Below, one piece after another: positions 5,763 through 63,241 of a DNA stretch of 64,000 nt. The position numbers and the translations under genes were made by a program. The DNA is from Eunapius fragilis (taxonomy: Eukaryota > Porifera > Demospongiae > Spongillida > Spongillidae), in the NCBI GenBank assembly GCA_963681505.1, contig OY811987.1:2005066-2069065 (forward strand). The letters are read 5' to 3'. Within the stretch, counting starts at the first letter, position 1. The number at the start of each line of letters is the position of its first letter. The notes beneath the pieces are model-generated. The model made no database searches, was not told the DNA's origin, and worked only from the letters and a program-made list of their open reading frames with translations.

Positions 5763-6700
5763 ACAAAATTCTTTCTCCATATTTGGTACAGGTTTTTAAA
5801 GCAGGGTTGGTTAATTAAGAGCAGGAAAGAAGTCACTGACGGGGCAGTTCAGGTAAGTCGAGCGGCGCTGGCCGACGACTGGACGGTTTAAATTGGAGGG
5901 GTCGTTAGCCTAAAATTTAAAAGTCAGACATCAAAAGGAGACTTCCTCAATCTAGTCTAGGTGATGCGACCCCGGATAATTACCACAACTAAAGCTAGCT
6001 ACGCCTATCACTTGATGTGCCCCTCCCGTAAGTTAGCGGGCCTTGTGTTTTCGTATATTCTACGACTGTACTGCTATCTAACCAAACCAACTGGTAATAG
6101 CAGTATCGCGCAGCATACATAAATATGCAAGAAATTTAATATAAGCTTGGTTGTATGAAAAAGATAATTGTCTTAATTGCACTATCATCGGTAATGCAAT
6201 GCCATGTTTCTTCAAACAGATATGTCTATTCAAAACACTCTCGTTACTGCAGCAGTCACTGCAGTCAATGATCCTAATTTTATTCTATTAAAAGGTTTTA
6301 TAGAGGATGCTACCTTAGCTGCACCAAAAGTAACACTGCAACGGTAAGAAGATTGTGAATACAAAGCATTGTACAACTTCAGTTATATTTTCTTATAGGC
6401 TTCTAGATGCAATGATACATCTTCAGAAGGAATTTCCTGACAATGAAGTAGTGTTAATGCAGTGCTTAGCTGTAATCGATAACGTCCAATCAATTCTTCC
6501 AAATTATTCACCCGCAGTCATTGAACCACTTCAGACTGCTGTACTTAGTGGGCCTTTTGATTTAGCTCAGAGTTCAACTGTGTGTGCTTTATCTATCAAG
6601 TTCATTTATGCACTGTGGAATGTTTACAAAGTACAACTCTCTGCTTCCTGTGACATGGATGGCTTGGCTCAAGTGTTGAACAGAGTATTGGCTTCTGATA
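5763..6700 (+). repeat. Duplicated upstream block and 5' exons of ARM-ATE1 copy A (partner 11465-12602)
   Basis: Sequence from AAATTCTTTCTCCATATTTGG through the GAGCAGGAAAGAAGTCAC and GGCGCTGGCCGACGACTG motifs, and on into exons 1 and 2, recurs at 11465-12602 with scattered substitutions and indels. The upstream part may hold the promoter or a 5' untranslated exon. A short reading frame in the second copy (ending VERRWPTTED) is not kept in the first, so I do not call it coding. Confidence 0.8.
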
Positions 6701-9700
6701 GCTGCCAAACTAGAACTGTTGCATTTGGAGTGGCTGGGGATACTCTGCAAGGCCTTCTAAGCAACCTCAGTGAAAATCAGCTACAAAACCTAAGTGACAA
6801 AGGAGTGTTCAAGAGCCTGAGGGCCCTTCTGAAATACCCTGCAGAAATGAGTCGCATCACACTAACACAAATCATTCCAAATTTAGCCATCTTTACTAAA
6901 GTGTCGCCTTGTACCAATGAGCTCATGGCTGAGGGATTTGCTGCCACAGTTTTACAATGTGCTGATATGATATGGTCTGATAGCAGGATGCAAGACTGCA
7001 TTTGTGAAATATTATCAGTTCATTGTAAGAACAGGCAGTTTTGCAAAGAGCTATTGAATCATAACTTTTTATTAAAAGCTGCAAATCTTCTTCAACAAGG
7101 ATGTAATCATGCATCATTGTTTAGTCTTATTAATGCGATCAACACTACCATTCCTTATATCTTTCCAAAGATGTGCTTGGAAGACGAAATGTTTGTGAAA
7201 TCAATCCTGGGAATTCTAAGTCCAGATGCCTCAGCATCAATAGATGACATAGAAGATGCCTGCATACTACTGCATAATGTTATTACACATGCGGCTGAGC
7301 CTCTAAAATTGTTAAAATACAAAATAATTAAGATGATGGAGGATTGTGCTACAAAATGGCCCTTGGAGTGCACTGAATGGACTTGTAGAGCTATAGCAGT
7401 TGTAGCACAGAGCTTTATTCCACGCAAAAATCTCAAGGAAGACAACCCAAACATACAAATTTTGGATAGGAACATGTCTGAAAGAGCCAATGATTTCTTT
7501 AAAGATAAGCATTACCTTTTTTTAAAAGACAGGCTATTGGACCCACGCCTTTGTTGTGAACCTGATCTGCTTAGGATCATGTATATCACTCTCCATAACA
7601 TCATAGTAGCATCACCTGATGACGTCCTTCAGGATATTTACTCTCCAGAATTCATCGAATTCTTCACTTACATCTTTATTCGAGATACCACCTTGTTTCC
7701 TGAAAAAGCTACAGATATTATACAATGTTCTTGTGCATTCATTCTTACAGCATCATGCAACAAAGAGATTTCAGGCTTTAGGCAGGCCAACTTCCATACA
7801 GCAGTAGTCAACCTTCTCCAGAAGGCACATACAACTGCCATGTGCAGAGATGTATCTGATCTTCTAGAATGCCTAGCTGGGCAGTACAAGGAGTATCTCC
7901 TAGACCTGAGTCCACTCGTGGAATGCAATGCAACGGTTGTTGCACTAGATGTACTCAAATTCATCGACTGCAAAAATGGTGAGGACCGATCTTGTGCATC
8001 ACTCCTTGCATCATTCCTATTGACAATGACATGTGACACACATGTTTGTAATGAGATGTACACTACAGGACAGATGCACACCCTCATAAAGCTTGTGCAG
8101 AGAGTGGAGTGCAGCCCCGATATTTATACTATGTTGGTGGCATCCATTGGTTCCATTGCATTCCCAGAATATGAGCGAAAGAAAGCCCTCACTGATCTTA
8201 ATTTCCACCTTACACTGTTGGAGGGCATTAGAGGCATTGCTAGCACAAGCCCCCTCAATACAAATAGTCTCTGCTGCTGTATTGCCACACTGAATGACAT
8301 AGTTTGCAATCACCTTGTTGGAGATATGCTCATAGCAGATGATTGCGTGTCCACGGTGATGAACGTCTTGGATATTAGTAGAGATCAAACAAGGGCTCTA
8401 TTTGATCCATGTCTTGACTTGTAGAGTACACTCACATCAGCATTACTTGTTCAAAAAAAGCACTCCACCATTTATAGGTTACTCAATATACTGTTAGACA
8501 TACTGAGAGACAGCACACAAATGACTCCATCAGAAATAGGCACAGCTACATCCATCATTCTCATGTGTCAGGAGGACGATGAAATTGTTATGAAACTTGG
8601 TGAATTAGATGAGACAAAGCTATTAATAGAGATTCTTAGCTTGAAGGGTATAGGTTTTGTTACTCACCGGTACTGTGCAGCAGCCATTGACAGGCAATTT
8701 CTTTACTTACTGCCAACAAAACATCCCACGCAAAATGCTAAGAAAAGTATTGATCCTTTATCAACACAGACCAACATTGAAAATGTTATTCATAATCTTG
8801 TTCCAAACATTCCAAAAGCTCCAGAGTTAGATGATGTCTCCAAACAGCAATTAACCTCATTGGGTATTAACCTGGGTGAGCCTTTACTTCGTATAGGCAG
8901 AGTATATGGAACAGAAGTGGGAGGGTGCTACTCATGTCAGGGAGGGGAGTGGTTCGAAGATATTGGTGTACGTTATCAAGGCCTGACATGCCATCAGTAC
9001 CAAGCGCTTATAGAGATGGGTTGGTCCCGAAGGGGGGGTGTGAAGCTATACCGTAGCAGCAGTTTCCATGATGTTCAGTGCGCCATCTGGGAAACAAAAG
9101 TATCAGTTCATGATTTTGACTACCACGCACACAAGAGCTATATAAAAGTTATGAAAAGGATACCAGTTGATCGACTTGCCATTGAGACGCTGCCTGTACA
9201 CTACTCTAAAGAATCATATGATTTGTACAACAAGTACAATTTAGAACGTCATGGATGGCCACCAGTGTCGACGAAGGAGTATTGTGAGCATACTGTGGAC
9301 AGTCCCATTACAAATGAGACAGTAAATGGTATTGAGTATGGAAGTTTTCACCAGCTGTATCGATTGGATGGAAAGCTTGTAGCTGTTAGTCTGATTGATA
9401 TAGTCCCAAAGGGCATTGTCAGTCTGTACATGTGGTACAGTCTGGAGAAGGAAGTTTCCAAGTACTCACTTGGAGTTTATTCTGCTCTCAAAGAGATAGA
9501 GTTTGTTCGAGAGCTGAGCAAGAAAAATCCAGAGATGAAGAATTATTACATCCAAGGGTGGGCTAAAAATTGCAAGAAGCTTGCGTACAAGGCCAACTAC
9601 TCTCCTACATCATTCTACTGTCCCTGTATAACACCAGAATGGCTTCCATCCTTGGAGTCTGTAAAAGAGGCTACAGAGAAGTACCTCAGGGAACACACAA

Positions 9701-10050
9701 ATGATCAAAATGGCCTTCCATCTAGTAATGCCACCACATCCATAGCTATGGAGACTACAGACAAGGACAAGAAAGTGTCACCTGATGTGCCATGTTCAGC
9801 ATTTGAGAATGACAGAGCAAAGTACCAGCAACTGACAGGGCACAAGCCTGATGTTAGCAAGATGGTGGTCTGTTTGAATGAGACAACTTATGTGTGCCTT
9901 GGTACCATGTTCTCCTTATTTGATATGAACCAGTCTCAACAAGATGTGATAAAGAAACGGTTTGAAGAGATTTTAGTTTCAATAGATTCTAGCATGGTTC
10001 ATAATGTGGTAGTGGATTTGAAGACCCAAGCAGTTCCATGCCATTTGTAA
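6222..10050 (+). CDS. ATE1: ARM/HEAT-like solenoid fused to arginyl-tRNA-protein transferase (copy A, one in-frame TAG)
   Basis: Exon 1 is about 6222-6343 (start ATG at 6222, donor GTAAG) and exon 2 is 6399-10050; the phases fit. The frame is open for about 1257 codons except for one TAG at 8422-8424 (codon about 716). Residues about 45-800 are a helix-rich, Leu-rich armadillo/HEAT-like region. The rest is ATE1: an N-terminal domain with a CYSC pair, LTCHQYQALIEMGW and VQCAIWE, and a C-terminal GNAT-like domain with SFHQLYRLDGK, IVSLYMWY, SLGVYSALKEIEF and LAYKANY. ATE1 transfers Arg from Arg-tRNA to protein N termini that carry Asp or Glu. A Leu codon (TTG to TAG) explains the stop when aligned to copy C. 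If translation stops there, a 715-aa solenoid protein results. A downstream ATG at 8521 could in principle give a 509-aa enzyme. Confidence 0.88.
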
Positions 10051-12145: not shown

Positions 12146-12602
12146 ATGTCTCTCAAAAGCAATCACATTACTGCAGCAGTGACTGCAGTCAGTGATCCTA
12201 ATTTTATTCTATTAAAAGGTTTTATAGAGGATGCTACCTTAGCTGCACCAAAAGTAACACTGCAACGGTAAGAAGATTGTGAATACAAAGCATTGTACAA
12301 CTTCAGTTATATTTTCTTATAGACTTCAAGATGCAATGATACATCTTCAGAAGGAATTTCCTGACAATGAAGTAGTGTTAATGCAGTGCTTAGCTGTAAT
12401 CGATAACGTCCAATCAATTCTTCCAAATGATTCACCTGCAGTCATTGAACCACTTCAGACTGCTGTACTTAGTGAGCCTTTTGATTTAGCTCAGAATTCA
12501 ACTATGTGTGCTTTATCTATCAAGTTCATTTATGCACTGTGGAATGTTTACAAAGTACAACTATCTGCTTCCTGTGACATGGATGGCTTGGCTCAAGTGT
12601 TG
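12146..12602 (+). pseudogene. ARM-ATE1 copy B, truncated after the start of the solenoid
   Basis: Exon 1 (12146-12267) and the start of exon 2 (from 12323) are nearly identical to copy A, with the same donor and acceptor. Similarity stops at 12602, immediately after the codons for GLAQVL. The reading frame then runs into unrelated DNA and ends at a TAG near 12618. The lost part includes nearly the whole solenoid and all of ATE1. The foreign sequence at the break is a transposase relic on the opposite strand. Confidence 0.9.
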
Positions 12603-13458: not shown

Positions 13459-16412
13459 CAGTAGCGGATCCAGCGAGGGGCTAGGGGGGGCTATAGCCCT
13501 CCCTCCCCCCCTTCCAATTTATATTATTCATACCATGTGACGTGTACATTTAATTTTAGGTAATAATTAATAAGTTGTTAATTGTTTGCTTTCGCACGCG
13601 CGCGCTGTGTTTCCGACATCAATGGCAGAGAACGGGGCAGGACCCTCTAAAAAGACCAAGATATGGAGATGCTCTCTTTTAGACCACTTTTCGTGATCAG
13701 GCACATCGCCATCGGCGTCTGTTAGTGTTATTAGCAATGACGAGACACCATTGGATGGTTCCTTCGAGGTTTCTGGTGATCGAGGTTCCTTGGATGGCCC
13801 TTTTGAAGATGTAGCGAGAGGTGTGTCAGATCATATGAGCCTCCTCTGCCAGATCATATTCAGCCTCCTCTGCCAGGCCCTCTGCAAATGGCGGGACCAC
13901 CGGATTGTGGTTTGATGAAGTTTCGTATTCTTGATGGCTCTGCTACTGATGAGGAAAAATATTGGATTGTGTCACTTTTAGAACAACCAAAAGAGTTTGT
14001 ATTAAAATTAAAATTTCCTGCATCAAAGGAAGGTAAGCAAAAGAGGTCATTCCAAAGCGCTTGGTTCATTAAGTACCCTTGGCTGACATATAGCAGAATG
14101 GAAAATGGTGGCTATTGTGCGCATTGCTTTGTGTTTGCATCTGGATGTAGTCTCGGTGTGTTGGTTAGATCGCCAATGGTGAAGTTTAAAAAGGCTCTTG
14201 AGACTCTTCAGTTGCATGACATTACACAATACCATCGGGAAGCTAGGATCAAAGCTGTAGCATTTATTAATGTGATGGAAGGAAGACAGGCAAGTATTGC
14301 CAATTCCCTGAACGAAACGTACGCCATAACAGTGCAACGAAATAGGAATGTGTTAAAATCTATTATGGTCACTGTTGAGTTTTGTGGCCGACAAGGAATA
14401 GCACTACGGGGACACAGAGATGATCGAATCTACCTTGATGAGCAAGACAACAATCCAGGAAACTTTCAAGCCTTATTACAATTCCGCTGCAATGCAGGAG
14501 ATAATGAACTTTCATCTCATTTTCAGGAATGCTCCAAAAATTCTACGTATCGCTCTAAGACCACACAAAATGACATCCTCAATGTATTTGGGAGCATGAT
14601 TAAGGAGACTATTATAGCAAAAGTTAAAGCAGGTAAATACTATGCCATGATTGCAGATGAAGTTCAGGATGCTCCATCCATTGAACAGATATCAGTTGTA
14701 TTGCACTACGTGCACAAAGTTGGCTGCCGATATACGATAAAGGAAAGTTTTGTTGCATTCAAAGAATTGCATAGAGTAATGACTGGTGCTGCAATAGCAG
14801 AATCACTGCTAGAAGAGCTCAAAGAACTAGATCTAGATTTGGATCATCTAAGAGGACAGGGCTATGATGGAAGTGGAGCTATGGCAGGCAGTGTACAAGG
14901 TGCCAGCAGTATCATCCTTCAAAAGCATCCACTTGCCATCTTTGTTCACTGCTGCAGTCATGTTTTGAATCTGTCTATAGCTTTCATGTTCTGACGCATT
15001 GGTGAGGAATATGATGGGCAGTGTCAGTGAAGTGCATAAGTTCTTCGAGCATGGTAAACGTCAGGATAAGCTGACAGAGGTGATTGATGCAACAATGCCC
15101 AATACCAAGAAAGTAAAAATAAAATCCCTGTGCAGAACTCGTTGGATTGAGCGTCACGATGCCTTAGAAGTGTTTGTTGACTTATATCCTGCAATCATAC
15201 AATCACTTCGAGATATCTCTTAAAATGGAACAGAGAAACAGTTCAAAGTGCAACAGGTTTAGTAGGGTGTATTGAAAATTTTTCTTTCGTTATTTCTTTA
15301 GTGGTTGTTTTTAATATTATGTGCTATATCAAGGGACTAACTGTTCTTTTACAACTAGAGTCTTTGGATATTGTTCAAGGGATTCAAATGGTGACTGAAG
15401 TAAAGGAAATACTAAGTGATGTTAGGGAAAACATTGTTGAACATTACCAGCTATGGCACAAACAAGCTGTGGAATTGGTGCAGCAGTCTGATTGTGAAGA
15501 GCCATCAATACCACGCAGATGCAATAAACAAACGCAACGAAGTAATGTTGAAGCAGATGATCCAGAGATGTACTACAGAAGAACTATCGCTATTCCTTTC
15601 CTTGACCACCTTCTTAATGAGCTAGGTGAACGGTTTACTTCTCATGCAAATATAGCTACTCTTGGATTGTGCCTCATACCTAAAGTTTTTATGGAAAGGA
15701 GTGACTGGAATGTTCATGTACAAAGCTTCGCGAAGATGTTCCAAAGTGATTTGCCGGCACCACTTTCATTGACTGCTGAACTTCATACATGGAAAATGAA
15801 ATTCCATAAATGGAAACCATCGGAACTTCTAATGAATCCTTTAGCAGCATTAAATGAGTGTGACAACAGAGCCTACCCTAACATCTTTGTACTACTTCAG
15901 TTGTTATGCACAATCCCCGTAACATCGTGTGAAGCAGAGCGGTCATTTTCTGCCCTGCGTAGAATAAAAACGTTTCTCCGCACCACTATGGGAGAGAAGC
16001 GGTTGAATGGCCTTGCACTGTTACACATCCATCGGGAAATATCTGTTAATCTGGATGAAGTTGTAACAAAATTCGCCCAAAAACACAATAGAAAACTACA
16101 ATTACTGTAATTATTTTTGTTCATGAATTGCTGTATGCGTTGATATACACTGCCACAATTATTATTTCATTCCCGCTACTGCATGCATGCGCTGATACAC
16201 TGCCACAATTATTATTTCATTCCCGCTACATGTAGTCACAATTAGCTGAACTTGAAACTTGCGTAATTTTTTAGCACGCCGAATTAACATTTTCAAAAGC
16301 TTCCGCGCTTCGCGCGGGAGGGGGCACATCTGCACCCTCCCCCTTTGGGTGATCCCCTCCACTACAACCCCCTTCTTAGCCCCCCCAACGGATAATCCTG
16401 GATCCGCTACTG
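13459..16412 (+). mobile_element. hAT element 1 with 5-bp target duplication
   Basis: The left end CAGTAGCGGATCCAG at 13459 and its exact reverse complement ending at 16412 form 15-bp terminal inverted repeats, with G-rich subterminal sequence continuing inward. The flanks carry ATCTT at 13454-13458 and 16413-16417, a perfect 5-bp target duplication. The internal transposase is annotated separately. Confidence 0.9.
13625..16110 (+). pseudogene. hAT transposase (ZMYM1-like, TTF zinc finger / DUF4371 type), degenerate
   Basis: The main open frame runs 13888-14994 and continues after lesions at 14999-15223 and 15301-16110. It has a TTF-type zinc-finger region (SAWFIKYPWL, then GYCAHCFVF), the DUF4371-like core (FCGRQGIALRGHRDD, MIADEVQDA with a catalytic Asp, GQGYDGSGAM) and the C-terminal hAT dimerisation block (TSCEAERSFSALRRIKTFLR). 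An in-frame TGA at about 14994 coupled with a frame change, and a gap near 15230, break it. It is the cargo of hAT element 1 and lies just downstream of the Tnp2-like relic. Confidence 0.92.
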
Positions 16413-27620: not shown

Positions 27621-30600
27621 ATGTCCAGCCATAACAATGCAGACGATGGTAGTGGGGACACAGGAGTAGATCAACCAATGGGAACATCAACAGACGTACT
27701 GCCTAAGGTAAGCCAATTAATATACTAACTTCAGAGAATGCTGACATAAAGTGCAGCTTATTATATTGCAGGATGAACAGGCTGCACCTCAAGCTGACCA
27801 CCTTCACAACTCAATGGACAATGTAGCAAATGATCCTAATTTTATTGTAATTAAGAACTTTCTTGAAAATCCTGACCAAACACCAGCAGTAGAGACACTG
27901 CACAGGTGAGTAATCTGATCATGTCCGAGTACATAATTCAAAGGGATCTATTATAGGATATTTGACGCTATGCTACAGCTACAAAAGTCATATCCTGGGA
28001 ATGAAACAGTGTTGACGGTGTGCTTATTGGTAGTAGAACTCTACCAATCTGTTCTTCCAGCTCAACTGCTTCCTGCTGCCAAGTCACTTCAGAGTGCTGT
28101 TATAAGTGTGAATTCTGATCCAACTCTCAGTGCTCTATCATTGCAGTTCATTACAGCACTGTGTGCTGTTTACAAAGTAGAACTCTCTTCATCCTGTGAC
28201 ATGGATGGACTGGCTCAAATGCTGAATGGGGCACTACATGGGGACAAAAAACAAACCAGGACTGTTTCCTTTGGAGTGGCTGGGGACACCATGCTTGGTC
28301 TGCTTGAACATTTTAGTGATCAGCAGCTACAAAATCTGAATGCTAAAGGAGTCTACAAGTGTCTAAGGAACCTTCTGAAATACCATGATGAAATGGATCA
28401 CGCTAACCTCAGAAAGGTGATTATGAACATCTACTCCTTTACTTGTGTGTCACCATGCACTGAAGAGGTTCTTGGTGAAGGGTTCATCAGTATACTCCTG
28501 TCAGCTGCAGAGACAGTCTGGTCTGAGCGTGTAATGCAGGAGAGCATGTATAGAATACTATCAATTCATTGCAAGAACAGAAGATTTATTGAGGAGCTGT
28601 TGAACCAAAACTTCCTATTGAGAGCTGCTAAACTTTTCCAGCAAGAATGCTACCATGCATCACTGTTCAGATTTATTTTTGCCTGTATAGGTTCTGCACC
28701 TGAGATGTTTTCAAAGCGATGCTTAGAGGAAGCAGAATTTATGCAAATTGTGCTCAGTATTGCCAACCCTGCTTCCTCAAGGGCCAAGGAAGATGTTGAG
28801 GATGTCTGCAAGCTCCTGACATTATTGTGTGCAGTTGATTCACCCAAATTGTTTGAATACAGCATAGTCACAAAGATTGAGGATTGTGCCAAAATGTGGC
28901 CTAAGGAAATCGCTGTATGGGGATGCAGGGCTTTGGGGGCTGTAGCAGAATCCTTATGCCCATATAAAAGCTTTCAAATCCAGCTGGCAAGTCTTCAGGG
29001 CGACATTCCAGGCATTGCTCCAGAGCAGGATCAGATAATGTTGACCAGAGCAGCCAATTTCTTTGGAGAGAACCACCACCTCTTTTTGCAACAAATGCTA
29101 TCCGACCCTGCCCTTAGTGCCAATCTTGATATACTGGCTGTCCTATATAACACACTGCAGAATATCATAATAGCATCTCCACAAGAAACTATAACTCGCA
29201 TGTGCTCCCAAGACTTCATTGAGTTCCTTGTCTTCATCTTTATCAGAGACACCATAACATTCACTGAGATGGCAGCAGACATTGCGCAGTTCATTCATAT
29301 ATTCCTTCTAAGGATCGGGAGTAAAGAAGAGCTTTCTGCTTTTTGCAAGGCAAATTTCCATGTAGCTGTGGTCAACCTCCTTCAAGAGACTGCCGAAGAG
29401 AGCACACGTGTCACGGCCGCTAGCCTTTTAAGATACTTGGCTGTACAATACAATAAATTACTTAAAGATCAGAAGCCACTCTTAGAATGTCAGGCCCAGA
29501 AAGTTGCGCTGAATTTGCTCAAAGCTTGCAGAAATGAGGATGGTGATGAATCGAGATGCGCATCAAACCTCCTGTCACTGCTCCTAACAATGTCTGGTGA
29601 CAAAGCCATTGCCCAGGAGATGTACACAGCAGGATCGTTGGACACCCTCCTGGAGCTGATACAGACAGGGTGCAGTTCATACATGTACGGAATGTTGGTA
29701 CTAGTAATTGGGTGTGTCACCTATCCTGAGTATGTGAGGCAAGTTTACCTTGCTGATCGCAAATTCCACCTCACACTCCTGCAGGCAATCAAAGATGGTG
29801 CAGACTCAAGCCCACTTGACCTCCATCTCCTCTACTCATGCATTGTAACATTGACCATTGTAGCTTGCAATGACGCCATCAAGAATGAGCTTGTGGAAGG
29901 CAAGTGCATGAGTGCAGTGACCAAGGTGGTTAATGGCGCCAGTGACAATGCTGACATCTGCAGCTCAGGCCTAGGCTTGCTCTGCTCCCTCATGTCCTCA
30001 CCCCTGGTTCAGAAGCAGCCAAGTATCACAGAGGACATACTTGTTACAGTGGCCAACATTATGAAGGGGAGCAGTGCCAAGCATGACAAGGTCATCAGGG
30101 CAGCAGCATCCATCATTCTCACCTGCCAGGACAATGATGAAATGCTGGTGAAGATTGACGCAAGTGGTGTTATAGGACATCTGTTGGATGTCGAGCAGTG
30201 TAACAATGTACATACAAATAAGTGTTGCACCATGGCAATTGAAAGGCAGCTCCTTCATTTGGTATCAATTAAAACTGCAAAGCAAGAAGTTGTAGATACC
30301 TGGGCGGTTCCTAAATCAACACAAAGCAAACTTCAATGTGCTCAGCCAAAAGAAAGCCTTGTTCCAAATATTCCAAAAGCTCCGGAGCTAGATGATTCCT
30401 CCAGACAACAGCTAGCCTCATTGGGTATTAACCTGGGGACCGGTGAGCCTTTACTTCGCATAGGCAGGGTATATGGGGTTCACGTGGGAGAGTGCCACTC
30501 CTGTCAGAGAGGTGAGTGGTTTGAAGAGATAGGTATATCCACTCAAGGTCTGACATTCCATCAGTACCAAAGTCTTATAGAGAAGGGTTGGTTCAGAAGA

Positions 30601-31605
30601 GGGGGAGTGAAGCTATACCACAGCAGCTGTTGCCATGACGCCCAGTGTGCCTACTGGGAAGCAAAAGTATCAGTTCATGATTTTGACTGCCGCGCACACA
30701 AGAGCTATGTAAAAGTCATGCGAAGGATACCAGTTGATCGGCTTACCATTGAGACGCTGCCTGTACACTATTCTAAAGAATCATATGATTTGTACAACAA
30801 GTACAACATAGGACGCCATGCCAAGACCTTGGTATCTGAGAAGGAGTATTGTGAACATACTGTGGACAGTCCCATTCAAAATGAGACAATAGATGGTATT
30901 GAATATGGAAGTTTTCACCAGTTGTATCGATTGGATGGAAAGCTGGTGGCTGTTAGTCTGATTGATGTAGTCCCAAAGGGCATTGTCAGTCTGTACATGT
31001 GGTACAGTCTGGAGAAGGAAGTGTCCAAGTACTCTCTTGGAGTTTATTCTGCTCTGAAAGAGATAGAGTTTGTTCGAGAGCTGAGCAAGAAGAATCCAGA
31101 GATGAAGTATTACTACCTCCAGGGATGGAATGAAAATAACAAGAAGCTTGCGTACAAGGCCAACTACCCTCCTGAATCATTCTACTGTGCCTGTATAACA
31201 CCAGAATGGCTTCCATCCTCAGAGGCTGTGAAAGAGGCTACAGAGAAGTACCTCAGGGAACACACACATGATCAAAATGGCCTTCCATCTAGTAATGCCA
31301 CTACACCAATAGGTGTAGAAACTACAGACAAGGACAAAAAAGTATCACCTGATATGCCATGTTCAGCATTTGAGAATGACAGAGCAAAGTACCAGCAACT
31401 GACAGGGCATAGGCCTGATGTTAGCAAGATGGTGGTTTGTTTGAACTATACCACATACATGTACCTTGGTGAGGTGTTCTCCACATTTAAGATGGAGAAG
31501 TCACAAAAGGATTTAATGGAAATACAGTTTGAACAGATGTTAGTTGCAATGGATCCTGATCTGGTTCAAAGTGTGGTTGTAGATTTGAAGGCGCATGTCA
31601 TATGA
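27621..31605 (+). CDS. ATE1: ARM/HEAT-like solenoid fused to arginyl-tRNA-protein transferase (copy C, intact, 1289 aa)
   Basis: Exons are 27621-27707, 27772-27905 and 27957-31605, with GT-AG borders and fitting phases; the total is exactly 1289 codons plus TGA. Residues about 80-830 form a Leu- and Cys-rich all-helical region, best read as armadillo/HEAT repeats. Residues about 905-985 are the ATE1 N-terminal domain: CHSC at about 920, LTFHQYQSLIEKGW, SSCCHDAQCAYWE. Residues about 1015-1165 are the ATE1 C-terminal catalytic domain: SKESYDLYNKYN, YGSFHQLYRLDGKLVAVSLI, YSLGVYSALKEIEFVREL and LAYKANYPPESFYC. A tail of about 120 residues follows. ATE1 uses Arg-tRNA to arginylate N-terminal Asp/Glu or oxidised Cys in the Arg/N-degron pathway. 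Usual ATE1 proteins are about 500 residues, so the solenoid more than doubles the length. Its role as substrate-binding module is inference. Confidence 0.93.
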
Positions 31606-45464: not shown

Positions 45465-48400
45465 CAGAGGCGGATACAGGGGGGGGGTCCAGGGTGTCCG
45501 GACACCCCCCTTCCAGCCGATCATGAATAAATTAACGCGACCATATCTTAACCACTTCTGGTTATCATGGCGACAAAGCGGTCAGCAACGATACTCACGT
45601 TTTTCTCAAAACGAGTGAAGCAAACAGGTAATCATTTAGCACGAGAGTTCGCCGTATTGCCAGTGAAGGTGGAAGTATAGAAATAATGACTATTTTATTT
45701 TAATTGGCTAGCTACCATGGTTACAGCAGACCAGCCACTTGTAGAAGCTGAAGGCAGTTCCGGTTCGGGGTATGCACATGCAGCAGATAATTTTAGAGGT
45801 TCGTCGCAGCATCAAACATCGGATGTTGGCGGTACGATATGGTGTTGATTTTTTCTTCGCTGTACAATAGTTTTAAATGTATACATGTATACCATGCAGA
45901 ATCACACAGTTGTCTCCAGAGTGCCTGTTGCTCCACATCTCGTTGCAGTGACTCCCTAGGCAAGTTTGTAGAAATATAGAGTTAGTAGAACTCTAATTCT
46001 TTCTGTATAGATTGTGCTCCAGAGATGTCATTGCACCACTCCTTTGGTAATTCTGGCAGCCAATTGACGGCACACTCTGAAATCAGTACACCTGTCACAC
46101 CAGGTACATTAAATGTGTTTAAAGTGCACAGTATCATTTGTAGTCGGCAATGATGTGCATATATCTACACAACCATTACAACTGAACAACAGGTTATAGT
46201 TATCGTTGCAGTATAATTACTGAAGTCATCACTTTATCTAGTTACATAATTTAAAGGCAACTGATGTTTGATATTAATTATAACTGTTGCAGCTTATGAA
46301 GATACTGACACCCTTGTCACGTATTCACATGACATTGGTGAAGTGGCCAGTGGTACGATACAGTCCACGTCACTTTCAGCTCAAGAAAAGGCCAGTTTTT
46401 TGAAAAATCATTTTGTTCCAGGCAAAGATTACAAATTTTCCACACAAATCTTGCCAAAAGAAGGTGGCAAAAAGCAGAAGATGCTCACGTTTCAAAATTC
46501 TTGGCTTGAGCAGCACAAATGGCTAGTATATAGCCCATCGCAACAAGGAGGGTTTTGCAAGTATTGTGTGCTGTTTCCTCCCACAACTTCTCAAATCAAA
46601 ACAGGTGTTTTGGTATCCATTCCAATGAAGAAGTTCAATAAAGCAACAGGGAAGTGTGGTTATTTAGCTATGCATGAACAACTTGAATATCATAAAGATG
46701 CGGTAGTAAGGAGTATGTCCTTATGTGAAAGTTTGGAACACCCAGAATCAAGCTTACCTTATAAAATTTCAAGTCTGAATAAGGAGTTGTATGACAAAAA
46801 TTTCAGTATTTTAAAATCAATAGTAAAGGCAATAATATTTTGTGGAAAACAAAATGTACCTTTACGTGGTCATCGAGATGATAGCACATCTACAACAGTT
46901 AATAAAGGAAATTTCTTGGCTCTTTTGCACCTCATGGCTGAAACTGATACTGTATTAAAGGACCATCTTGAACAAGGAAAACGAAATGCTAAATGCACAT
47001 CAAAAACAACACAAAATGAGATCATATCAATTATTGCTGATTATATTCGAGAACGTACAACAAAATCATTACAGCTTTCAACCAGTGTTTTTTCAATCAT
47101 AGCTGATGAAGTTACTGGGAAGTATGACAATAAAGAAATATTATCTATTTGTGTTCGTTTTATTGAGGGGGAGAATATTAGTGAAGTGTTCTTGGATTTT
47201 GTGGAGTTAATAAGAACAACAGGAGCACACATTGCAGAAGCTATTATGCTAAGCCTGGCCCAAAACAAGGTCGACATACTCAAATGCAGAGGACAAGCTT
47301 ATGATGGTGCAGCTGCTATGTCTTCTGAAAGAGTTGGAGTGCAGGCAAGAATAAAAGTTGTGTGCCCACTAGCTTTATATACCCATTGCAGAAGCCATGT
47401 TCTTAACCTTAGCATAGCCTCTGCTTGCAAGGTTCCTCAAATAAGTTCTATGGTAGATGTTATTAATGAAACATTCAAGTTTTTCAATAATTCTCCCAAG
47501 CGACAAAGATTTTTTGAACATATTTTGGATGCTTTTGAATCAGATTGTACCAAAAGCAAGCTTCTTGGACTTTGTCAGACTCGTTGGGTGGAGCGGCATA
47601 CATGTTATGAGACATTTTATGAACTGTATGTCTATATTTGCTGCTGCTTAGAAGCTATAATTAATCCTTCTGTGTATCTAGATAAAAATTTGGACCAAAA
47701 TTGGGATTGGGATTCTGATTCAAAAGTAAAGGCACAAGGTCTCTTGCATTCCTTGAAGTCAACGCAAAACATTGTGTCATTTTTGGTTGCAAAGAATGCT
47801 CTAGAATTAATTAGACCTATTGCTGTTAAACTACAGAAGAAAGACCAAGACATTGTCGCAGCATCGAATATGATTGATGAAGCAATAAGTAACATTAAGG
47901 ATTTAAGAGAGAATATTGAAACAGAGTTTTGTGATTGGTTTTCAGATGTTAAAAGAATTGTGGAAGCTGTTGGTAGTGAAATTAGTGTACCACGAATTGC
48001 TGGGAAACAGACTTATCGTGCAAATGCCACAACAGATGGTGCTACACCTGAAGGTTATTACCGTGTGAATGTTGCAGTCCCATTTTTAGATCATTTACAT
48101 CAAGAAATGAGTAGCAGATTTGACCATGAGAACAGAGTAGGTAATGAATTGTTTAATTTAGTTCCAAGTATAATTATTACACTAAGTAATTTACAGCCAT
48201 TAGTGGAAGGTTTGCTCTTTTGGAAACTTGACATGCCTTCACCTTCTTCACTTTTATGTGAAATTAAGTTGTGGCAAAAGCACTGGACAAAAAGATCTGA
48301 AGTTTCTGATATCCCTGAAGATCTGTCTACAAGTTTTGTCAGCTGTGATGCAGACGTGTATCCAAATATCATAGTACTATTAAAAATAGGGTGTACTCTT

Positions 48401-49271
48401 CCTGTATCTAGCTGTGAAGCTGAAAGGTCTTTCTCTGGCTACAGAAGAGTAAAAAGTTATATTCGAAGTTCAATGACTACAGAGCGACTTGCCGGTCTAA
48501 CTCTAATGCACCTGCATAATGACATTGAAATTAATGTTGACCTAATTTGCCAACAGTATATTAGTAAATATAACAGAAGAATGTTTAAATCTTGTATTTT
48601 GTTCGAGTAAGCCATGTTGCATTTCATTTGTACATGTCATTGCATTTCATTTGTACATGTCATGTCATTCATATATATTGCTGTGTTAAAAAAAGTTAGT
48701 TTCCCGGATTTACATGCATTGCATGACACATGATACAATAACGTATTTAGCATTGTATAGTACGGGTTTTGAATAGATACAGGATGCTTGCATGCGTACA
48801 CATGTATCATTGGACCTGACGCAATAATATAAATTTTCTAGAAACGAGCGCCGAAGTTGACGCGTACAAGTGAAATGTACGCGTAATTATATAGTCTCAA
48901 GTGCGTATGAAAGAAGTTGTGGTAGAGGTCACTTATTTGATATAGACCCTTTTTCGCCGATATTTAAATGAAGTACTTTGTAACCCGGCCTGATTATAGT
49001 TTAAATGCGACTGAGCTACGTACATCATGCACACAAATCACGATTTATGACCATTTCAGATGCATGCAATGATGCATCTATACTGTGCTAAGCATGGGTT
49101 TTTGGAAGCTAATTAATGATGCGAAAAGCGTTGGCTCCTGGGGCGGAGCCCCAGACCCCGATGGGGGAGCTTACAGCGCTCCCCCATACCCCCTAGCTGC
49201 TATTGTACCCCTCCCCTCATTAATAATTCATTATGGACACCCCCCTCATTCAATTCCTGTATCCGCCCCTG
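45465..49271 (+). mobile_element. hAT element 3, full length, in a coding exon
   Basis: The left end CAGAGGCGGATACAGG and right end CCTGTATCCGCCCCTG are inverted repeats. CACCT precedes the left end (45459-45463, plus one G) and follows the right end (49272-49276). The undisrupted paralog at about 39105-39120 reads TTGCACCCATGAGC and confirms that a single CACC(T) site was duplicated. It carries an intact transposase gene and shares a right-end block with hAT element 2. Confidence 0.92.
45717..48610 (+). CDS. hAT transposase, intact, four exons, 861 aa
   Basis: Exons are 45717-45831, 45900-45959, 46011-46103 and 46293-48610. Phases agree and the sum is 861 codons plus TAA. The second intron uses a GC donor (GCAAGT). 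Domains: a low-complexity N terminus, a TTF-type zinc finger (SWLEQHKWLVYS, then GGFCKYCVLF, residues about 155-185), a DUF4371-type core with IFCGKQNVPLRGHRDD, SIIADEVTG (first Asp, about 360), GQAYDGAAAM (second Asp, about 423), and a C-terminal SCEAERSFSGYRRVKSYIR block (Glu about 797) used for dimerisation. It is ZMYM1-like. All catalytic positions expected for hAT transposases appear present, so the element may be active or recently so. Confidence 0.9.
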
Positions 49272-61065: not shown

Positions 61066-63241
61066 ATGGGCGTGTTTGACATGATACGTTTACTAGCAAG
61101 TTGCGTCTCGGTCGCCAATCGAGCAGGTCAAATCATAAAGGAAGTAGCCCAGCAGGGGATGCTTGGCGTCGTGGATAAGGCAAGGTGGATCGAAGCCAAC
61201 CTCTTCTTTCTTTTTACGTTGGTGATCCCGCAGAACGTACGCGATTATCAGACTGAGGCGGACAGGAAAGCCCAGAGGTGTATCGTGTCGACATTAGCCG
61301 CTAGATTCCCCAACATCACTATCGTTGCGGAGGAGGTGGGGTCCGTACGAAACTTCTAAGGCGTATGTAGTTGCAGAACACTTTCCCATTTTAATTAATG
61401 TAATGTCGCAGCACCTCATTAAGGATGACGTAATTACCCTCTCATCACTACTGCAGGTTCTTCCCCCATGTAATGAGGACCAGTTGTGGATGACTTCAGC
61501 GAGGAAGTTCTCCAAGAGCAATGTCCCCCTGACCTCTCCTTCGTGGAAGAGAAGGATGTGAGGATTGCTGCTGCATGTGTGCATGCATATCACGTAGCTG
61601 TTATGGTCATACCACCTGGTCGTACCACCTGATTAGCACTGGTCATTTAGCATTAAGGTCATGCCACCTGATTAGCATTAAGGTCATGCCACCTGGTTAG
61701 CATTAAGGTCATACACCTGATTAGCATTAAGGTCATACACCTGATTAGCATTAAGGTCATACACCTGATTAGCATTAAGGTCATGCCACCTGATTAGCAT
61801 TAAGGTCATTTAGCATTAAGGTCATGCCACCTGGTTAGCATTAAGGTCATGCCACCCAGTTAGTAATACTACCTGGTTAGTAATACCACCGGTTAGTAAT
61901 TCCACCTGGTTAGTAATACCACCTGGTTAGTAATACTACCTGGTTGGTAATACCACCTGGTTAATAATACCATCCAGTTAGTAACACCACCTGGTTAGTA
62001 ATACCACCTGGTTAGTAATAATACCACCTGGTTAGTAACACCACCTGGTTAGTAATACCACCTGGTTAGTAATAATACCACCTGGTTAGTAATACCACCT
62101 GGTTAGTAATACCACCTGGTTAGTAATAATACCACCTGGTTAGCATACCATTAATTACAGTTGTATCAAACCTTCCTCGAAGCAGGTATGGCCATGGCTA
62201 AGGTAGTTGAATGCAGTGTGCTAGAGTACACCTCACTAAACAGCTCATTCACTAACCCAAGTTTGTAGTGATTCTTGAACCCCTGTTTGCGTATCATTAA
62301 CAATTCTTCTTGCAGGTAGTTCTCTGGGTTGACCCTCTTGATGGTACCAATGAATTTATAAAAGGTTATGATTACCACATGCACCTTTCCTCCTCCCCAC
62401 TCCTTTCATATAACAGATTAACATGTGAAGGCCCTTGTGCAGCATTGGGATGCAACACCACCATTATAGGGGAGGGGGCCATCATACACTTTGGGGGGGG
62501 GGGGGGGGGTGTCATAGTACTTCATAGGGGCCACCTGTAGACTAGGGGGGCAGGGAGGGGGTGTCATAGTACTTCATAGGGGCCACCCGTAGACTAGGGA
62601 GGGGGAGGGGGGTGGCACAGTAGCAATGGTGTACTTTCAATTACAGATGCTTTTGTCATAACCATTATCACTGGTCCCCAGGTTTGTATGAATACGTGAC
62701 TGTGTTGGTAGGGATTGCTGTGAAAGGAAAACCTGTGGGCGGAGTACTACATCAACCATTTTGGAACTTATCGGGTGATGTGGGCCAGACCCCATGTGGG
62801 AGAACAGTCTGGGGACTAGTGGGACTGGGCGTGCGGGGGCTTCCCACTCTGATCCCAGCTGGACCAGGCTCAGGATGCACGCTTGTGGCAACATGGCCGC
62901 CATATTCTGATGCAGAGAGGCTCAGAAGGACTATTGAGAGCATTAAGCCAGTGAAGGTGATAGAAGTGGGCGGAGCTGAGGTCCTCCATCTCCTCGAGCG
63001 CAGTGCCCAGGCCCACATCATGCTTGGACTTACGTCACAGAGGTGGGACGTGTGTACGGAGGAGGGGCTGCTACGGGCTGCTGGGGGCGTGGCCACTGAT
63101 ATCCATGGCAACTCAATCTCTTATTTGGCTGACTCAGTGTGTCGCGGTTGCATCTGCGGTTTTGTTGGCAGTGTGGAAGCAAGGCTTCATAATCAGTTAT
63201 TGTCCCAAATCCCAGCGTCTGTGAGGGAGGCAATGTGGTAG
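61066..63241 (+). CDS. BPNT1: 3'(2'),5'-bisphosphate nucleotidase 1
   Basis: Exons are 61066-61179, 61234 to about 61333, about 61486-61557, 62316-62364 and 62682-63241 (stop TAG). The first intron is 54 bp with a GC donor (AAG|GCAAGG) and a CCCGCAG acceptor after a pyrimidine tract; removing it joins LGVVDK to NVRDYQTEADRKAQ as in the family. Metal-binding motifs of the inositol monophosphatase fold are visible: IVAEE at the end of the second block, WVDPLDGT in the fourth, and RWDVCTEEGLLRAAGG in the last. Also seen are VTVLVGIAVKGKPVGGVLHQP and TVWGLVGLG. The enzyme removes the 3'-phosphate of PAP and hydrolyses inositol 1,4-bisphosphate, in a Li-sensitive, Mg-dependent way. The junction between the second and third blocks is not resolved. 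An ATG at 61036 is a possible earlier start. Confidence 0.92.
61600..62160. repeat. Tandem minisatellite in BPNT1 intron
   Basis: Two families run in series: AGCATTAAGGTCATGCCACC units (about 61630-61860) and TTAGTAATACCACCTGG units (about 61860-62150), sharing the CCACCTGGTTAG core. They fill most of the intron before the WVDPLDGT exon. Confidence 0.95.

Follow-up and report, generated by a model that had tools for sequence, protein, structure and literature searches.

How might an enzyme that tags proteins come to carry its own means of choosing them? The question is raised by a gene in a stretch of 64,000 nucleotides from the sponge Eunapius fragilis (contig OY811987.1, positions 2,005,066 to 2,069,065, forward strand; hereafter, the window), in which an armadillo (ARM)-type alpha-solenoid precedes a domain resembling the arginyltransferase ATE1. 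Positions 27970-31605 form an open reading frame of 1,211 amino acids (protein P0001, the reference for residue numbers below), and joining 27621-27707, 27772-27905, and 27957-31605 across two introns with GT donors and AG acceptors yields 1,289 codons and a single terminal stop, in agreement with the intact gene of the preliminary description. The frame is open throughout 27937-31605 and no intron lies between the solenoid and the ATE part, which bears out the earlier claim that the fusion sits inside one unbroken exon and is not a splicing artifact. From its sequence, the window gene almost certainly encodes one real fusion protein, with a predicted splicing model. We propose that the C-terminal part is an aminoacyl-tRNA-protein transferase of the ATE1 superfamily and that the ARM solenoid may serve it as a built-in receptor for substrates, a reading to which we give an even chance.

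Both folds were identified from sequence and from predicted models. The ATE1-type transferase domain expected at the C terminus is recovered by its Pfam profile (ATE_C, E = 2.7e−25, 89.8 bits versus a cut-off of 25), while ATE_N reaches 15.5 bits, below its cut-off of 27. In the first family alignment, ATE_C is matched at E ≤ 0.01 in 31 of 31 members and ATE_N in 26 of 31 (E threshold only, Pfam cut-off not applied). Human ATE1 is the top structural match of the predicted model of the C-terminal part, which has the overall ATE1 fold, and also its best sequence match in the PDB (E = 7.6e−30) and its best profile match (E = 2.8e−42). The earlier claim of two ATE1 domains is thus sound for ATE_C, whereas the N-terminal ATE domain is present by predicted fold and alignment yet divergent. 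The armadillo assignment held as well: the solenoid is ARM-like in AlphaFold models of residues 13-1211 (predicted local distance difference test score [pLDDT], 83.9) and of the solenoid of one paralog (pLDDT, 90.2), and a profile built from the family finds a designed ARM protein (4rv1, E = 6.8e−15), although the Pfam scan of the window protein found no ARM-type model above its cut-off. Among seven proteins scanned, ARM_ARMC5 matched P0012 at E = 6.6e−10 (39.3 bits, below its cut-off of 79.9), and V-ATPase_H_N exceeded its cut-off in P0031 (28.4 versus 25.7 bits).

ARM proteins such as designed ARM 4rv1, importin-alpha, and beta-catenin share the solenoid fold and a profile-level sequence match with the fusion; in the fusion, however, the solenoid is joined to a transferase. 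ARM proteins elsewhere hold peptides on solenoid surfaces of this kind, and several of those among the structural matches are, judging by their titles, peptide binders. The ARM domain of ZYG11B and ZER1 gives weak sequence matches, all under cut-off (ZER1-like_2nd in 2 of 31 members; ZYG11B structure 7ep2, E = 9.6e−4). These two proteins are Gly/N-degron readers of CUL2; they read N-terminal signals rather than write them. ZER1/ZYG11B and ARMC5 chains are missing from the structural-alignment listing, a circumstance that carries no evidential weight.

The architecture recurs in the databases. A search with the window protein returned 31 proteins including the query (1,074 to 1,385 amino acids), and a search with residues 380-860 of a distant member, P0028, returned 92, of which 77 were new. 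Each search was limited to proteins close to the query in length and scored just the 7,995 candidates with the most words in common with it; in the second, proteins shorter than 688 or longer than 2,189 amino acids could not turn up. The sources of the family proteins are ena, lgn, jgi, and ncbi. Each of the 108 long proteins aligns with a family solenoid in 599 columns or more, and 107 of them contain the ATE part, the exception being P0191 (701 amino acids). A profile search with the ATE part found 83 proteins, ten of which are of the fusion type but shorter (277 to 745 amino acids). Six of these ten retain the end of the solenoid and four begin within the ATE part, and they are likelier to be truncated predictions than solenoid-free versions. 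A solenoid without ATE, as a possible ancestor, was sought in the whole genome with P0001 and P0012, and the best candidates scored held no match beyond the loci on contig C17 and two ATE1 genes described below; among the 92 proteins of the P0028 search, only P0191 had no listed ATE_C. A bacterial origin or contamination was rejected: when bacterial and archaeal genomes were scanned once with two peptide patterns taken from the family alignment, none of the 123 stretches returned was a relative. Among the open-licence papers listed in literature searches, none was, judged on its title and the start of its abstract, about such an ARM-ATE fusion. Another extended ATE protein, P0099 (EukProt, 651 amino acids), carries an added RanBP2-type zinc finger (PF00641, precomputed); unlike the fusion, it has the canonical signature GWYVDSCPKM and no listed ARM model.

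Relative to ATE1 (PF04376 plus PF04377; human 8tzv, yeast 7tif/8e3s, Kluyveromyces lactis 7wfx), the fusion adds an ARM solenoid of about 750 residues in front. Sequence comparison places its ATE domain in a sister group of ATE1, not in ATE1 proper; hence, the earlier label "ATE1" is right for the superfamily fold but too narrow for a group with a rewritten signature and a weakened metal site. The ATE parts of 107 fusion proteins were set against 64 further rows: the two ATE1 genes on contigs C10 and C13 and 62 proteins, P0094 included, from the ATE-profile search. That search had found 73 of the non-fusion type, and the 11 left out had fewer than 380 amino acids or no CxxC. A rapidly built tree of 92 rows, whose root is not known and which has long branches, places 28 of the 107 fusion rows on one side of a branch with a Shimodaira-Hasegawa-like approximate likelihood ratio test (SH-aLRT) value of 98, and the 64 others, including P0094, on the other. 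P0094 (Logan, 594 amino acids), which stands alone, is the row closest to the fusion ATE domains; it shares with them RRGS, YDVARPV, and a changed MGGFSPLNDKLSYK stretch and matches none of six family solenoids. It may represent the pre-fusion state or a truncated prediction.

At least 99 of the 107 fusion proteins keep residues shared with ATE1 (C842, C845, R876, G878, H983, D999, P1002, Y1009, G1024, E1031, K1059, Y1062, and K1063), whereas the ATE1 signature G(F/Y)YxxxCxKM gives way to QGWNxxNxKL. Specifically, QGW is found in all 107 aligned proteins in place of G, F/Y, and Y (two genome copies outside this set, L013 and L015, read EGW), N1057 in 103 in place of Cys, and L1060 in 105 in place of Met. 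Elsewhere, RSG becomes RRGG (R877 in 104 of 107, versus Ser in ATE1), the Tyr of CGYC becomes Asn in 95, and the Pro of YDPD is replaced. The first to fourth metal cysteines are retained in 105, 99, 96, and 72 of the 107 proteins, respectively. The CC pair is often C-S or C-A, the fourth position being Cys in 72, Ser in 20, Ala in 8, and Thr in 4. The 35 proteins without this Cys include the window gene, which with CHSC and C-A has three of the four cysteines and not the complete CxxC...CC site; genome copies L022, L011, and L016 have all four, and in the copies at 1.70-1.84 Mb the first motif (CxxC) is altered.

Two published studies describe the four ATE1 cysteines as binding zinc or an iron-sulfur cluster and as bearing on activity (PMC10115844, PMC9884297), and the whole cluster of yeast ATE1 is reported to require all four (PMC9884297). 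Yeast Tyr22, between the first two cysteines, contacts the 3′ end of the tRNA, and helix 299-304 lies beside the tRNA, inside the substrate domain (PMC10115844). By our own count on the alignment, this helix corresponds to the PKMNYK stretch and overlaps the stretch rewritten in the fusion family. Because of the rewritten signature, the changed CGYC tyrosine, and the missing fourth cysteine, activity and the donor amino acid are only putatively those of ATE1. The fusion domain most likely works like ATE1, with arginyl transfer plausible, and we judge catalytic activity to be rather probable. A pseudo-enzyme, in which the ATE-like fold would no longer transfer but would bind tRNA or N termini while carried on an ARM scaffold, would fit the family-wide loss of GFYxxxCxKM and of the YDPD proline, the second Cys of CC missing in about a third of the family (35/107), the altered CxxC of the 1.70-1.84 Mb copies, and the below-cut-off ATE_N score of the window gene. 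However, the replacement signature is near-invariant over the 107 proteins, the ATE1-shared residues are retained, and the catalytic core has the lowest nonsynonymous divergence (dN) of the compared regions in most of the seven gene pairs considered below. Since a near-invariant new signature and a low core dN point to changed specificity more than to decay, we regard a pseudo-enzyme as an unlikely, if the strongest, alternative.

The window gene is one of many copies, and neither this multigene cluster, nor the second copy in the same window, nor the contrast between an alike core and divergent solenoids was part of the preliminary description. PF04377 has 15 matches in the genome: 13 on C17 (1.57-2.24 Mb), one on C10, and one on C13. 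Genome searches with P0001 and P0012 recovered the same 13 loci and one fragment (window 12336-12602), which makes these numbers at-least counts. The frame is unbroken through both parts in 8 of the 13 loci (L022, L010, L011, L013, L014, L015, L017, and the window gene), changes before about residue 124-148 in L016, is in pieces in L018 and L012, and is broken in L019. The search for a stand-alone ATE1 elsewhere in the genome gave two, L020 (C10:1516000-1523000) and L021 (C13:2233500-2240500), each in a single frame with both Pfam ATE domains above their cut-offs. The C10 gene matches human ATE1 at E = 2.3e−120; the C13 gene is identical to P0037 and 62% identical over 414 amino acids to EukProt Em0016g318a. 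The two share just 37% identity. Given these two genes, the housekeeping role of ATE1 can be covered outside the cluster.

Divergence among the copies is distributed unevenly along the gene. Ten copies allow 45 pairs, of which we chose seven divergent ones so that the four solenoid types could be compared. In these pairs, DNA identity is 91-97% in residues 985-1105 (synonymous divergence [dS], 0.08-0.23) and 86-98% in residues 1106-1175 (dS, 0.07-0.34) versus 37-58% in the solenoids (dS from 1.56 to saturated). For residues 751-940, which include the ATE_N part, identity is 50-54% in five pairs and 78% and 82% in the remaining two (the window copies and L022-L016). Protein constraint alone was rejected as the cause of the alike core, because dS is low there as well. 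The core is probably kept alike through gene conversion, which the low dS suggests as the simplest reading and which protein trees back in part. These trees left out six database proteins repeating genome copies, and the trees for the approximately unbiased (AU) test used 24 of the 35 rows of the full solenoid tree. The solenoid tree joins relatives from other genomes by solenoid type (L022/L011 with P0006/P0009; L016 with P0005/P0010; L017 and related copies with P0013/P0014/P0016). It rejects the same-genome group L022+L011+L016 (p-AU = 2.3e−63), P0005+P0006 (p-AU = 1.0e−6), and a group of the eight copies not of the window type (p-AU = 5.6e−14). In the ATE_C tree, two pairs cut across solenoid types, L011-L016 and P0005-P0006, and the first of three orthologue groups tested is rejected (p-AU = 0.012). 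P0005, P0006, and P0014 may come from one genome. A grouping of the ATE_C tree by genome throughout was rejected; it is only partial.

Selection also differs between the parts. Among recent copies, 11 pairs gave dN/dS values of 0.25-0.58 for the ATE part and 0.44-1.1 for the solenoid, which indicates that the ATE part is under purifying selection and that recent solenoids are freer. In the five unbroken copies at 1.70-1.84 Mb, residues 301-400 and 601-750 (L014 numbering) hold 113 of the 165 amino-acid-variable codons of residues 51-800, with 48 of 98 codons variable in the first block and 65 of 130 in the second. Over ten pairs, 12 of the 20 dN/dS values of these blocks are 0.66-0.93 and 8 are above 1, in most cases with few synonymous changes behind them; outside the blocks, solenoid values are 0.29-0.82. 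Because dS in pairs with L017 is 0.22-0.44 in the variable blocks versus 0.07-0.10 elsewhere, the blocks may be older and exchanged.

Several observations weigh against a receptor joined to a conserved, active core. Judging by the alignment, the domain departs from ATE1 in its signature, in the tyrosine flanked by metal cysteines, and in its fourth metal-binding residue, and in L022-L016 the N-terminal ATE domain is alike too. The ATE_C tree keeps P0013/P0014/P0016 together by solenoid type and leaves P0002 and P0004 with the window type; it stops just short of rejecting the second orthologue group (p-AU = 0.059), and its fit to the third is equal or better (p-AU = 0.61, log-likelihood 6.3 higher). 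DNA divergence in several recent pairs is greater for the ATE part than for the solenoid (for example, dS of 0.125 versus 0.024 in L014-L013 and of 0.136 versus 0.043 in L022-L011), a pattern that fits import from other copies and implies that the core is not simply frozen. Finally, positive selection on the solenoid, looked for in the block dN/dS values of the ten pairs, was not demonstrated.

The same values bear on whether the solenoid might merely position the enzyme, for example at cilia, adherens junctions, or a ubiquitin ligase, with no part in substrate choice and with its divergence due to relaxed constraint. The 12 values of 0.66-0.93 fit such relaxation, the structural matches include axonemal-complex chains (7jtk_X, 8j07, 9cpc) and beta-catenin, and there are the weak sequence links to ARMC5 and ZER1/ZYG11B. 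A common anchor would, however, be expected to be conserved among copies in one genome, in contrast to the low solenoid and high core identities of the seven chosen pairs, and we consider an anchor slightly less probable than a pseudo-enzyme. The combination of an alike core and diverging solenoids is the best evidence that the solenoid picks substrates, although we hold the case that this is its main role to be evenly balanced.

ATE1 finds its substrates by their N-terminal residue. We hypothesize that in the fusion, within a single polypeptide, the solenoid would hold a target protein while the ATE-like domain would transfer to it an amino acid carried by a charged tRNA, most likely arginine although another is possible, and that the tag would mark the target for degradation or alter its function. 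With the solenoid tethered to a tRNA-dependent transferase, tagging would depend on the bound partner. After the gene multiplied within one chromosomal cluster, exchange among copies would preserve the likeness of the catalytic core as the solenoids and, in most pairs, the N-terminal substrate domain diverged; the copies would then differ in what is tagged and not in how. If true, animals would have evolved tRNA-dependent tagging that is directed by receptors, and substrate choice could be tested directly on naturally occurring sets of receptors mounted on a single catalytic core. Recognition gene families are known to combine an alike core with receptors that diverge, which offers a testable lead. 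More speculatively, and in our view improbably, the cluster could be an innate immune or allorecognition repertoire, in which a cassette kept by conversion would be steered by diversifying solenoids to different, possibly pathogen- or self-marker-derived, proteins, with a donor amino acid that may not be arginine.

That two neighboring genes were read as one, through prediction or assembly, is very improbable and was taken as refuted: the gene model is predicted from DNA sequence, but no intron separates the parts, more than half of the loci are unbroken, and the long database proteins, from many contigs, hold both parts with one exception. The peptide encoded by exon 2 (DPNF...L(H/Q)R) is seen again 5′ of the second window copy and 5′ of the fragment. 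Four database proteins (P0021, P0131, P0164, and P0178, all lgn) have a leader comparable to exons 1 and 2 in frame with the solenoid, as the product of a spliced transcript would; P0118 and P0123 have a shorter in-frame leader. Coordinates are collected in Table 1.

Table 1. Fusion-gene features in the window, in window positions
Feature	Position	Strand	Basis or remark
Second full-length fusion copy, 57% identical	6412..10050	+	Single in-frame TAG at 8422-8424
Third copy, truncated, solenoid start only	12336..12602	+	tblastn, 94% to P0003 over 89 amino acids; 51-54% to P0001
Exon 1, 29 codons, polar leader	27621..27707	+	ATG start, GTAAGC donor; in-frame joined translation of 1,289 amino acids
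Exon 2, codes DPNFIVIKNFLEN...LHR solenoid leader	27772..27905	+	GCAG acceptor, GTGAGT donor
Exon 3, unbroken, holds solenoid and entire ATE-like domain	27957..31605	+	ATAG acceptor; about 3.65 kb
Armadillo-type alpha-solenoid, residues 1-750 of P0001	27970..30219	+	
ATE_N-like substrate/metal domain	30460..30780	+	CHSC (CxxC retained), later C-A versus C-C of ATE1; ATE_N bits and alignments
ATE_C, GNAT-type transferase core, residues 937-1072	30778..31185	+	
Tract alike among paralogs, residues about 985-1175	30922..31494	+	86-98% DNA identity in seven chosen pairs; windowed identity and dS
Family signature QGWNENNKKL replacing canonical GFYxxxCxKM	31120..31149	+	Alignment

The second window copy is 91% identical to P0003, an uninterrupted database protein that may be its allele, come from another assembly, or be a further copy. 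Transposase frames of the hAT family (DUF4371, Dimer_Tnp_hAT) lie between and beside the fusion copies; the one at window positions 13807-16110 is split over two frames, and that at 46265-48610 is one frame of 781 amino acids. Near the end of the window, positions 62624-63241 hold an inositol monophosphatase-like frame (PF00459, E = 2.2e−13).

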